This document shows positions 30,119 through 35,962 of a stretch of 64,000 bases of DNA, piece by piece (the first letter of the stretch is position 1; each line of letters opens with the position of its first letter). The position numbers were made by a program, and so were the translations under genes. The DNA is taken from assembly GCF_020150815.1 (NCBI RefSeq), contig NZ_CP083723.1:3162001-3226000 (forward strand), written 5' to 3'. Below the pieces are notes generated by a model. It had not been told where the DNA came from. It saw only the letters and a list, made by a program, of their open reading frames with translations, and made no database searches. This DNA is from Haloprofundus salilacus. Lineage in GTDB: Archaea; Halobacteriota; Halobacteria; Halobacteriales; Haloferacaceae.

Positions 30119-30634
30119 TCAATCCGTGTACGGCTTCTCGATGTCGGGATCGACGGTGATGAGTGCGTTCATCCGTCGAGTTATCGCGTCAAACAGCGTG
30201 ATGACGGGAGAGAGTGCGCGTTCGACGAGCCGAACGGGAGACGCGATGCGTAGCGACCAGTTCTCGGCGTTCCCGAGACCGTAGGCCTTCGGTACGATCT
30301 CGCCGAATATCAGGACGAGACAGCTCGTGAGTACCGTCGTCGCCACGACTGCGAGTCCGGACGGGAGGTAGCTGGCGATGAGGACGGTCACGATGCTCGA
30401 AATCGCGATGTTCACGACGTTGTTTCCGACGAGAAGCGTCACCAACAGCCGATGCGGGTCGTCGCGCAGCTCCTGCAGCAACTCCGCCCGGGGGTCTCCC
30501 GTCGTCGCCTGCCGCTCTATCCACTCTGTAGACAGCGAGAAGACGGCCGTCTCCGAACTCGAAAAGAACGCGCTACACAGCAACAGTACGGCCGTCGCTA
30601 CGACTCCGACGAGAGCCACTATCGAACTATCCAT
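30119..30634 (-). CDS. DUF21 (CNNM-type) membrane protein lacking CBS domains
   Basis: 171 residues with four hydrophobic segments. The DUF21 motifs are SAFFSSSETAVFSLS near the N-terminus, LLVGNNVVNIAISSIV, and the conserved FGEIVPKAYGLGNAENWSL. CNNM/CorC proteins use this domain for Mg2+ or Co2+ transport, but they also carry cytoplasmic CBS and CorC domains. Here the protein stops after the membrane domain, which seems to be a regular short form, since the reading frame ends cleanly. It lies downstream of tRNA-Gly on the other strand. Confidence 0.85.
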   Translation of the reverse strand: MDSSIVALVGVVATAVLLLCSAFFSSSETAVFSLSTEWIERQATTGDPRAELLQELRDDPHRLLVTLLVGNNVVNIAISSIVTVLIASYLPSGLAVVATTVLTSCLVLIFGEIVPKAYGLGNAENWSLRIASPVRLVERALSPVITLFDAITRRMNALITVDPDIEKPYTD

Positions 30635-30688
30635 GCGCCACTCTTTCAGTCGAGCGTGAAAGAGCCTATCGTCCGGAGAGCGGAGGAC

Positions 30689-30751
30689 GGAGTCGACGTC
30701 GCCGAGGGGACCTCGGCGGGCCGACAGACCGCGTCTGTCGACGTCGTCTCC
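30689..30751. repeat. Compact three-way-junction inverted-repeat structure
   Basis: The outer arm GGAGTCGACGTC (30689-30700) pairs with GACGTCGTCTCC (30740-30751), 11 of 12 positions. It encloses two perfect triloop hairpins: GCCGAGG-GGA-CCTCGGC (30701-30717) and CGACAGAC-CGC-GTCTGTCG (30722-30740, sharing one base with the outer arm). The 9-mer GTCGACGTC also occurs as a direct repeat (30692-30700 and 30737-30745). It lies in the divergent spacer between the DUF21 gene and the DUF1801-type gene. Function unknown: recombination site, structured RNA or protein target are all possible. Confidence 0.6.
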
Positions 30752-30882
30752 GCTACCCGTTCTGGAATACAGAGGATGTATTTAGTACGGAGAGCGAATC
30801 TGATTCAGACCGATCTGACTGAAACCGGCGTTGTGAGAACCGCGGTAATGTTGATACTCCCAAACTCACATTGGTACTTAGT

Positions 30883-31689
30883 ATGAGCGTGTCCAGCCCA
30901 CTAACGCCCCAGCGGGTCTCCGAACTCGTGATAGCTAATCGAGCAATCAGAGCACCGTACTACCAAGCTGACCATGACGAGGCGGTTCGTTTCACGGATC
31001 TGGAAAGGGGACTCCAATGGGGTGCAGACGCTATTCCTGCCTTACTGGATCTGTTCCGGGTTGAGCAAGACACCCGAGACGACCATCCTCAGGGCTTCGT
31101 GGGCTTTGCTCGCCACTGGCGAGGAGATACGTTGCGGCTGGACTTCGACCTATTTTCTGAACCCAAGGAGTCAGACCCAATCCTGGTCGTGACGGCGATA
31201 TCAGGCCGAGGAGGAGAGAACACCATCGTGGACGAGGAGTTCGGGGAAATTGAGTTGTCAGACCAGGTTCCGACGCAGGAGGAGTGGGAGGAACGGAGTA
31301 AACGGTACCAGGCGGCGCGGAGGAAGGATGACACCGATGGATCGGCAGCGGTGAAGGCGTACATTGCAGCGCTGCCGGGTTGGAAGAGCGAGGTTGCTAC
31401 ACAATTCGACGAGATTATCCAACGCGAAGTGCCCCCGGTGCGCCGCGCCGTGAGGTATCACCAGCCGTTCTATGGTGTCGAGGACCAGGGCTGGTTCGCG
31501 TCGTTCAGTGCCTTCTCAAAACACGTGAAACTGGCATTCGTGTGCAAATCGTACCTCGAGCCGAAGCCACCCAGCGGGACGGCTCCGGATAGACAGGCCC
31601 TGGACCTCAAGCAGACGGACACGCTGGACGAGGAGCAAGTCGCTTCCTGGGTGCGGCAAGCCGCCGACACTCCGGGGATGAACTGGTGA
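30883..31689 (+). CDS. DUF1801-domain protein with atypical codon use
   Basis: 268 residues. The C-terminal ~125 residues form a DUF1801/YdhG-like domain: AAVKAYIAALPGWKSEVATQFDEIIQREVPPVRRAVRYHQPFYG..GWFASFSAFSKHVKLAF. Proteins of this fold have no settled role. The N-terminal half (~1-140) is a separate region I do not recognise. Codon use is less G/C-biased than in neighbouring genes (frequent AGA/AGG, TTA, ACT), which suggests acquisition from elsewhere. ATG at 30883 is preferred to the GTG at 30871. The three-way-junction repeat lies 130 nt upstream. Confidence 0.75.
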   Translation: MSVSSPLTPQRVSELVIANRAIRAPYYQADHDEAVRFTDLERGLQWGADAIPALLDLFRVEQDTRDDHPQGFVGFARHWRGDTLRLDFDLFSEPKESDPILVVTAISGRGGENTIVDEEFGEIELSDQVPTQEEWEERSKRYQAARRKDDTDGSAAVKAYIAALPGWKSEVATQFDEIIQREVPPVRRAVRYHQPFYGVEDQGWFASFSAFSKHVKLAFVCKSYLEPKPPSGTAPDRQALDLKQTDTLDEEQVASWVRQAADTPGMNW

Positions 31690-31895
31690 GAAAGCCCGCG
31701 CATGTGTAATGGCCCATAGGGCAGCTACGACTCCTAGACGCAGGTGTGCATCACTGCCAACTCTGTATTGATTGATTTCAAGGGCGACTTTCTTGAGTTG
31801 CGTCCCTGCGAGACACGTGCCCTGTATTCAGCACGGTTTCGACAAACGATCAGTGATCGAGGGTTTCAACAGAGCCACCGAACCCGATGATTCGC

Positions 31896-33812: not shown

Positions 33813-34976
33813 TTACTCGTTCTGGGGGAAGAAACGAAGCACTCTGTCGTCGCCGTCGCGGGGGTCGCCGCGACCGTCGCGGTTGCTCGTCACGGCGTAC
33901 AGATGGTCGTCGGGTCCGGTGAACACCGTCCGAAGGCGACCGAACTCGCCCTCGTACAGCGGTTCGTCTTCGACTACCTCCGTGCCGTCGAAGCGCAGGC
34001 GTCGAATGTGCTCACCTGCGAGCGTTCCGAAGAAGAAATCGCCTCGCCACTCGCGGTACGGCCCCCGATAGAACGTCGCGCTCGCGGGGGCGATGGTCGG
34101 CGTGTACTCGGTGATCGCCGCCGTGTACTCGTCGGTGCTCTCGGTGCCGCCTACGTCGGGCCAGCCGTAGTTGTTGCCCGCTTCGAGCACGTTCACTTCG
34201 TCGTTCTTGTCGGGACCGTGTTCGGTCGAGAAGATGGTTCCTCGGCGAGACGCAGTCTCGCTGCCCGACGAGCCCTGCTCGCCGACGTCGCGGAAGGCGA
34301 GCCCCTGTGGGTTGCGGTGGCCGTAGGTGAACACCTCGTTGTCGAACGGATTCTCCGGGTGCGGTTGGCCGTCGAACGTCAGCCGAAGCACCTTCCCGTT
34401 GAGCGAATCGGTGTTCTGCGCACGCTCCCGGTTGTTCGCGTCGCCGACGGTGGCCAGCAGGCTCTCCTCGTAGACGGCGAGTCGGCCGCCGTCGTGGATG
34501 ATGTCGCCGGGAATCCCGTCGACAATCGGCTCCCACTCCCAGCCGTTTTCGAGGTCGTGGCGGACGATACGGTTGACGAACTCCGCCTCGTCGCTCTCGT
34601 AGGTGTGGTAGGTGAACGCCGCCGGTTCGCTCGGGTGAAAGACCAACCCCAGTAGACCGCCTTCGCCGTCGTCGACGATGTCGGGCACGCTGAGAACCTC
34701 CTCGGGGTCGCCCCGTCCGCCGGGGATGCGGACGATGCGTCCGAGGCGTTCGGTGAGATAGAGGTCGCCGTCGCGCCACGCCGCCCCCCACGGGATTTCG
34801 AGACCCGTGACGACCGTCTCGTGTTTGATGGTCTGTGGAGGCGGGGAGGTTGTCCGGGCGTCGGTCGACGGGTCGGAGGTGTTGTCGTTTCCGGGCGGGT
34901 CGGAGGTGGTCGGGGCGTCGAGGCAACCGCTGGCGGCGGCGACGCCGACGAAACCGAGATAGGTCCGGCGGTCCAT
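33813..34976 (-). CDS. PQQ-type aldose sugar dehydrogenase, Tat lipoprotein
   Basis: 387 residues. The N-terminus MDRRTYLGFVGVAAASGCLD is a short Tat/lipobox signal with Cys18, so the enzyme sits outside the membrane. A Thr/Pro/Asp linker follows. The six-blade beta-propeller of the GDH-B/Asd family begins VVTGLEIPWGAAW. Conserved segments are GLLGLVFHP, YGHRNPQGLAFR, EHGPDKNDEVNVLEAGNNYGWPDVGG and ATFYRGPY, where PQQ and calcium contacts lie in known members. It would oxidise sugars and pass electrons to the respiratory chain. The frame is open further upstream, but the signal peptide fixes the start at 34976. Confidence 0.9.
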   Translation of the reverse strand: MDRRTYLGFVGVAAASGCLDAPTTSDPPGNDNTSDPSTDARTTSPPPQTIKHETVVTGLEIPWGAAWRDGDLYLTERLGRIVRIPGGRGDPEEVLSVPDIVDDGEGGLLGLVFHPSEPAAFTYHTYESDEAEFVNRIVRHDLENGWEWEPIVDGIPGDIIHDGGRLAVYEESLLATVGDANNRERAQNTDSLNGKVLRLTFDGQPHPENPFDNEVFTYGHRNPQGLAFRDVGEQGSSGSETASRRGTIFSTEHGPDKNDEVNVLEAGNNYGWPDVGGTESTDEYTAAITEYTPTIAPASATFYRGPYREWRGDFFFGTLAGEHIRRLRFDGTEVVEDEPLYEGEFGRLRTVFTGPDDHLYAVTSNRDGRGDPRDGDDRVLRFFPQNE

Positions 34977-35062
34977 ACGTCCGTCATTCGGCTTCGCTAA
35001 CCAAAAGGTATCGCAAAAAACACGTTTTTCGACGTTCGAACCTCTCGGCTCTCGTACGGGTC

Positions 35063-35962
35063 TCAGCTCGGCGGTTGCCTGTCGCGGTCGAACTCGTCGA
35101 ACTCGTCGACGTCGTCGGGGAGATCGTACTCGATTTCGCGCTCGGCCTGTCGATTCTCGCCGCCCGTCTCCAGTGGCCCGGCCTCCTCCTCCCACCCGGG
35201 TTTGATCTTCACGCTCTTGGCGGGCGTGCCGACGGCGACGTGGTGAGCGGGCACGTCGCCCTGGACCACCGACCGCGCGCCGACGACGCTGTTCTCGCCG
35301 ATTTTACAGCCCGCCCGAACCATCGCGTCGTAGGTGACGCGGGCGTCGTCCTCGACGACAGTGTGGAAGTTCTTGACGGCGGTTTGGTCGACGATGTCGT
35401 GGTCGTGGCTGTAGAGGTGGACGCCGTCTGAGATGGAGACCCGATTGCCGATGGTGAGTCTGCCCCTGTCGTCGAGGTGGACGTCGTCGTGGACGACTGT
35501 GTTGTCGCCGACGCGGATGTTGTGGCCGTACGTCATCGTGATTCCCTTGAACAGACGGAGGTTCTCGCCCGCCTCCTCGAACAGGTGGTTCGCGAGCATC
35601 TGCCGGAACCGGAGCGCGAACTCCACGTTGTCGGCCATCGGCGTCGCGTCGAACTGCCGCCAGAGCCACTGGAGGTGCTTCGAGCGTTTGAACTTCTCCT
35701 CGTCCTTCTCGGCGTAGTACTCCGACTCCAGGGTCGAATTGCATGGGTCGTACCCCTGCAGTCGCACGCGCTCGGCGTTCGACACGTCCTCGCCGGCCTG
35801 CCAGCGCTCGTACGCCCCCCGATCGCCGTAGAGATCGACGAGCACGTCCTGGACGACGTCACAGGTGTCCTCTTCGCCGGAGAGTCGCTCGTCAACCTCG
35901 TCGATGAAGGCTCGAACCCCCTCCTCCGCTATCGGGGGGAGCGAGACGTGACGCTTTGTCAT
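35063..35962 (-). CDS. Acyltransferase with left-handed beta-helix (maltose/galactoside O-acetyltransferase-like)
   Basis: 299 residues. Residues ~105-225 show hexapeptide-repeat turns (ITMTYGHNIRVGDNTVVHDDVHLDDRGRLTIGNRVSISDGVHLYSHDHDI) and the catalytic His context SHDH. The ending VVQGDVPAHHVAVGTPAKSVK is typical of sugar O-acetyltransferases using acetyl-CoA. An N-terminal helical region of ~100 residues is longer than in bacterial MAT/GAT, and the acidic tail is halophilic. ATG at 35962 is used; a GTG two codons earlier is possible. The acceptor may be a glycan or small sugar. Confidence 0.86.
   Translation of the reverse strand: MTKRHVSLPPIAEEGVRAFIDEVDERLSGEEDTCDVVQDVLVDLYGDRGAYERWQAGEDVSNAERVRLQGYDPCNSTLESEYYAEKDEEKFKRSKHLQWLWRQFDATPMADNVEFALRFRQMLANHLFEEAGENLRLFKGITMTYGHNIRVGDNTVVHDDVHLDDRGRLTIGNRVSISDGVHLYSHDHDIVDQTAVKNFHTVVEDDARVTYDAMVRAGCKIGENSVVGARSVVQGDVPAHHVAVGTPAKSVKIKPGWEEEAGPLETGGENRQAEREIEYDLPDDVDEFDEFDRDRQPPS

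Follow-up and report, generated by a model that had tools for sequence, protein, structure and literature searches.

In the window, by which we mean the whole 64,000-nucleotide stretch of DNA analyzed here, a CNNM/DUF21 gene on the minus strand (30119–30634; Pfam PF01595) and a DUF1801 gene on the plus strand (30883–31689; Pfam PF08818) diverge from an intergenic region that contains a 63-bp inverted repeat (30689–30751, assigned to neither strand). Two perfect 7-bp stems closed by triloops, hairpin A (GCCGAGG-GGA-CCTCGGC; 30701–30717, plus strand) and hairpin B (GACAGAC-CGC-GTCTGTC; 30723–30739, plus strand), are separated by the spacer GGGCC (30718–30722, plus strand), which reads GGSCN in the consensus of the aligned copies described below. 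GACGTC is present on either side of the hairpin pair and, together with the terminal GGAGTC and GTCTCC, forms a 12-bp outer arm with one mismatch that encloses the structure. The predicted RNA fold of the 63 bp has a free energy of −40.9 kcal/mol (z = −3.6). Only one of 200 dinucleotide shuffles folded as well, confirming that the inverted repeat described in the initial annotation is real and non-random. An Rfam scan of the window at the gathering score revealed only two tRNAs and no family match for this structure.

Comparison with related genomes placed the structure in variable DNA. Two congeners harboring the locus (G001 and G004) align to the window up to approximately position 30671, including the conserved CNNM/DUF21 gene, and resume at 31819–31893 with nothing matching in between. 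The strain-specific stretch thus delimited (30674–31818) contains both the structure, hereafter copy 1, and the DUF1801 gene; copy 1 is absent from both congeners. The position of the DUF1801 gene there would be consistent with the atypical codon use that the initial annotation remarked for the next gene. At the corresponding spot G001 has 91 bp, and G004 carries a different insert of 2 kb. The closest named relative of the copy 1 locus is Haloprofundus marisrubri. In five other genomes, a homologue of the DUF1801 gene is present with no element upstream. Copy 1 and the gene therefore arrived separately, or the element entered the stretch at a later time, and the idea that copy 1 belongs to a DUF1801 gene module was ruled out on this basis.

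The initial annotation had proposed a search of relatives for further copies, and both blastn and a covariance model found unlinked ones. Using 311 bases around copy 1, blastn gave matches in 19 of 99 related genomes, some of them solely at the neighbouring gene. In G001 and G004 the match fell on the CNNM gene, and a hairpin core of about 50 bp was matched at many unlinked places in other genera. A local functional structure of the intergenic region, such as a terminator, a cis-regulator, an att site or a ribozyme, would be in keeping with a stable fold between divergent genes, but it would be expected neither to be missing from both congeners with the locus nor to recur as the same 45-nt unit in scores of unrelated genes. 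As Rfam provided no match either, we regard this explanation as extremely improbable; the cis-regulatory and att-site versions are ruled out by the empty congeners and the unlinked copies. The integration-site, silencing-structure and ribozyme readings of the initial annotation were wrong or found no support, and its mention of recombination was right only insofar as the element itself is mobile.

A covariance model was built from 14 copies found by sequence alone (blastn). At E≤0.01 it matched in 236 of 293 Halobacteria genomes, a count that is model-selected and includes some chance matches, as several weak matches in the window's own genome did not resemble the element; about 140 Halobacteria genomes had a best match with E≤1e-6 according to a manual count. 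With full scoring at E≤0.001 and both strands counted, G011 and G037 gave 54 and 56 matches, those of G011 corresponding to about 37 distinct places by count of the matches listed. Two genomes of the same family, G014 and G023, gave no matches at E≤1e-4 with the same full scoring, which shows that GC-rich haloarchaeal DNA alone does not suffice to trigger the model. Copies are also carried by plasmids. Searches for carriage by viruses returned no exact-pattern match in IMG/VR contigs and phage matches at chance level only.

Copy 1 matched the model over 51 nt (30695–30745) with 75 bits and an E-value of about 1e-15. Its 45-nt mobile unit, GTC-hairpin A-GGGCC-hairpin B-GAC, extends from 30698 to 30742 on the plus strand, with boundaries taken from the empty sites of other copies. 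Nearly all strong matches were exactly 51 nt long in the model and some were 57 nt long. In the 57-nt variants (L136, L140, L166, L167, L181, L183, L184, L191 and L199), a hairpin is apparently lengthened by 3+3 nt and the frame is kept. Tandem copies with a 90-bp period were observed inside genes at four places (L143 1531–1761, L156 1490–1630, L185 1499–1639 and L190 8–148). A genome of the genus Halorubrum (G323) displayed many short matches to a GAGGCGC-type subfamily, partly caught by the model, which suggests a genus-specific burst.

The consensus unit of the family comprises 45 nt: 5′-GTC-(7-bp stem, 3-nt loop)-GGSCN-(7-bp stem, 3-nt loop)-GAC-3′. In the 14 blastn-selected copies, the hairpins were 98–99% paired and 26 cells of the alignment carried two-sided changes, compared with 9.4 in shuffles. 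This set and the empty sites described below are free of model-selection bias. The 82-copy alignment and the in-gene counts were, like the genome count above, obtained from copies selected by a model that rewards pairing and GNC flanks, and their statistics are inflated accordingly. In that alignment of 82 distinct copies, 98.1% of the cells were paired in hairpin A and 98.8% in hairpin B. Compensatory changes occurred at 13 of the 14 hairpin pairs (7/7 in hairpin A, 6/7 in hairpin B) and were lost when the partners were slid by 1–3 columns. Two-sided change affected 222 cells versus 74 in shuffles, a difference that is harder to explain by model selection than the pairing percentage. The outer helix paired in only 75% of the cells and column pair 2/50 was unpaired in 59 of the 82 copies, demonstrating that the outer arm of copy 1 is not a family feature. 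From the three-way junction originally described, two adjacent hairpins with short GAC/GTC flanks are thus conserved, and the outer arm is peculiar to copy 1. The initial annotation had also suggested examining stem covariation and had tied its reading to conserved or compensated stems in relatives sharing the locus. Those relatives lack the element altogether, but both hairpins are compensated among unlinked copies elsewhere.

According to a codon-usage score of our own making, 82 of 129 distinct copies are clearly located inside coding sequences. Among these 82 model-selected in-gene copies, 79 are in sense orientation and 77 in sense phase 0. One of the three apparent antisense copies (L198) scored nearly equally in the other orientation (49.7 vs 52.5 bits), and the other two have ambiguous flanks. 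A copy inserted in frame lengthens the protein by 15 amino acids and leaves the gene intact. The resulting peptide (DVDERSSSASQTQSDDV) is acidic and serine-rich. Translated in sense phase 0, the element is acidic (mean +2.3), hydrophilic and contains stops in 5% of the copies. The remaining frames are basic, hydrophobic or often interrupted, or weakly acidic with stops in 27%. Hence, although copy 1 itself is intergenic, the lack of a coding explanation stated in the initial annotation does not apply to the family, since most copies reside in frame inside genes.

Residues 3 and 8 of the peptide are coupled. In 92 peptides the combinations Asp-Ser (34), Ala-Ala (29), Val-Thr (15) and Glu-Ser (7) were found, and the mutual information between both positions was reached by none of 5000 shuffles. 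As the codons of these residues lie on opposite sides of hairpin A, nucleic-acid pairing dictates the coupled amino acids. In this stretch of protein the sequence is set by the fold of the nucleic acid and not by the protein.

The window itself provides an example of an in-gene copy. Copy 2 (34242–34286, minus strand; model match 34241–34289, 34.6 bits) is a decayed 45-nt unit adding VGEQGSSGSETASRR to a gene on the minus strand (33813–35123), which encodes a sugar dehydrogenase-like beta-propeller, a name assigned from sequence and not by a family scan. Homologues of this gene are present in 34 of 40 genomes of the family. None of the 16 homologues aligned at this position, among them those of the same-genus genomes G001 and G003, contains the 15-residue insert. 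In the AlphaFold model of the window protein, the insert forms an unstructured loop joining two beta strands of the propeller, with pLDDT values below 50 at residues 284–292. The insert in MerA lies opposite a gap in the solved MerA structure 5x1y.

Filled and empty alleles differed by almost exactly 45 nt in merA, leuC, acs, thiI, a trpE/pabB-like gene and an fdh-like gene; apart from merA, which is annotated, and the window genes named by Pfam, all gene names are our reading of the translations. On plasmids, merA measures 1500 nt in Halorubrum trapanicum (filled) and 1455 nt in Halobacterium sp. BOL4-2 and Haloplanus rallus. Within Halorubrum, filled and empty forms of acs, leuC and the fdh-like gene differ by 45 nt. 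In the genus of the window, G003 alone carries the element in the trpE/pabB-like gene and G000 alone in an MBL-fold gene; the thiI-like gene is filled in both G003 and G004, and one further gene in both G000 and G003. These differences amount to 42–45 nt. Presence and absence of the element thus vary between congeners. The empty-site pairs include one for the L040 gene. The L135 joint gave 42 nt, and the comparisons for L199 were noisy.

From all joints combined, the unit emerges as 45 nt long (GTC-hairpin A-GGSCN-hairpin B-GAC) and as lying between GNC-type codons. Such codons flanked 67 of 74 copies on one side and 62 of 74 on the other compared with a background of 26%, an enrichment that is partly built into the model and is also present in the empty alleles. 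Since the target usually supplies GAC, insertion with a 3-nt duplication is indistinguishable from insertion without one. In the merA genes of Halorubrum trapanicum (L235) and Halomarina sp. BCD28 (L329), the element occupies the same site in two families. The elements are identical at 50 of 51 positions and the flanking merA sequences are about 79% identical, a pattern that suggests gene conversion or more than one insertion at this site. Different elements reside at apparently the same codon position in the leuC-like genes L206 (Halorubrum) and L168 (Halolamina).

At several loci (L091, L093, L094, L146, L148–L150, L153 and L019, belonging to several haloarchaeal families), the element was found at the 3′ end of tnpB genes of IS605/IS1341-like elements, and the tnpB stop codon lies within it. 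In haloarchaea, omegaRNA is encoded in the tnpB 3′ region (PMC12558985), and the insertion site in tnpB is probably located within the omegaRNA. The copies could be leftovers or components of the omegaRNA end of IS605-type elements, considering that tnpB 3′ ends of at least seven genera contain the element beside the right-end hairpin. As for the omegaRNA of the IS200/IS605 TnpB in Halobacterium, a structured RNA is possible. However, copies in host genes possess neither the right-end hairpin nor the TTCAC end. Moreover, tnpB genes in G228, G122, G005 and G207 exist either with the element or with a clean joint (GCGCGT/CGTGGAAAC; difference 46 nt), the empty joint reading GCGCGT/CGTGG, and many tnpB genes have the clean empty site GCGCGTCGTGG. 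These element-free tnpB relatives contradict an origin from tnpB or omegaRNA and show that the element inserted into tnpB and did not come from it. We consider the omegaRNA explanation very improbable.

The family thus has a defined 45-nt unit with compensated hairpins, is dispersed over unlinked sites, occurs in filled and empty alleles and is used in genes in sense orientation and in a single frame. Judged from these sequence comparisons, copy 1 is very probably (probability of about 0.85) an intergenic copy of a non-autonomous mobile palindromic element of Halobacteria. For its movement, the folded strand with two adjacent triloop hairpins, either single-stranded DNA or RNA, would be recognized by a putative trans-acting enzyme. 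Insertion would take place between GNC-type codons, with no target duplication or with a 3-nt GAC duplication. With its 45 nt and the acidic, serine-rich and nearly stop-free peptide of its sense frame, the element may be tolerated in the acidic proteins of haloarchaea. As the peptide probably forms an exposed loop, insertions in genes could survive. Antisense or out-of-frame insertions, giving basic, hydrophobic or stop-containing products, would be removed by selection. The element appears to be selfish; alternatively, the host might profit from the peptide.

The sense bias might also arise from the mechanism and not from selection, if the element moved as RNA or as a single strand exposed by transcription. 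The orientation of 79 of the 82 in-gene copies is compatible with such sense-only insertion, as is the tnpB copy, which is also in sense although its frame is wrong and the element ends the ORF. Furthermore, the GNC/GNC target reads alike on both strands, so that target choice alone cannot give a strand bias. Selection also explains the bias, however, because the antisense frames are hydrophobic, basic or stop-rich, and in the tnpB case the insertion sequence may have spread a single event. An RNA- or transcription-based route appears rather unlikely to us. We also deem unlikely a more comprehensive version, in which a class-wide archaeal element would move as folded RNA or as a transcription-exposed strand, would insert sense-only between GNC codons and would consist of 15 codons evolved for two codes, namely a fold for movement and an acidic peptide that does no harm to halophilic proteins.

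The best-known examples of selfish repeats lying in frame within genes come from Rickettsia. The mobile element reported here indicates that a far shorter system with behaviour like that of the Rickettsia palindromic elements (RPEs) runs through most sampled Halobacteria, where it reaches conserved enzymes such as MerA, an apparent LeuC and an apparent acetyl-CoA synthetase. Its polymorphism between congeners makes movement testable in culturable and genetically tractable archaea. Annotators should be aware that 15-residue inserts in haloarchaeal proteins and some TnpB C-termini may derive from a mobile element. In the open-access literature, which excludes most subscription papers and might therefore miss an earlier account, we found no earlier description of the element.

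Among known systems, miniature inverted-repeat transposable elements (MITEs) resemble the haloarchaeal element in being non-autonomous, short, palindromic and mobile. Unlike them, the element has terminal inverted repeats of only 3 bp (GTC/GAC) and is much shorter than usual. The partner search, limited to Y1 transposases, identified no IS relative, and a possible 3-nt GAC duplication is inseparable from target choice.

REPINs are inverted pairs of short hairpins with short conserved ends that spread as non-autonomous units (PMC3116915). The haloarchaeal element matches this plan with its two short inverted hairpins, its GTC...GAC ends and its inferred single-strand recognition, and it could accordingly be a REPIN, i.e. 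an inverted pair of REP hairpins moved on single-stranded DNA by a RAYT/Y1 (IS200-type) transposase. Several features disagree with this assignment. No PF01797 (Y1/RAYT) match was detected in G011, G037, G139 and the congener G003, all of which harbor the element, G011 and G037 being among the genomes with the highest copy numbers, whereas the copy-free genomes G014 and G023 do contain Y1. REPs carry a conserved GTAG tetranucleotide, which is absent from the element. Moreover, REPs are extragenic, and at least 82 of 129 haloarchaeal copies are located inside genes. As Y1 presence and copy number do not agree, a RAYT/Y1 driver is not supported, although an earlier driver may since have been lost; altogether, we judge the REPIN explanation to be quite unlikely.

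We know of no mobilizing enzyme for RPEs. These are palindromic repeats dispersed in frame in unrelated genes, to which they add a conserved peptide (PMC10969869). The haloarchaeal element is likewise a palindromic repeat dispersed in many unrelated genes with a preferred reading frame (77/82 in sense phase 0 among the model-selected copies, and a 45-nt gain in most empty-site pairs). It differs from the RPEs, which are about 150 bp long and belong to Rickettsia, in being archaeal and only 45 nt long, and further in its two adjacent triloop hairpins, its acidic serine-rich peptide, its GC-richness and its single stereotyped frame. A sequence relation is not known. RPEs are closest in behaviour and REPINs closest in anatomy. 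With the behaviour of the former and the structure of the latter, but with neither the length and lineage of RPEs nor the extragenic location and RAYT association of REPINs, the element is a member of neither family and is best filed as an archaeal variant of the palindromic elements in coding genes.
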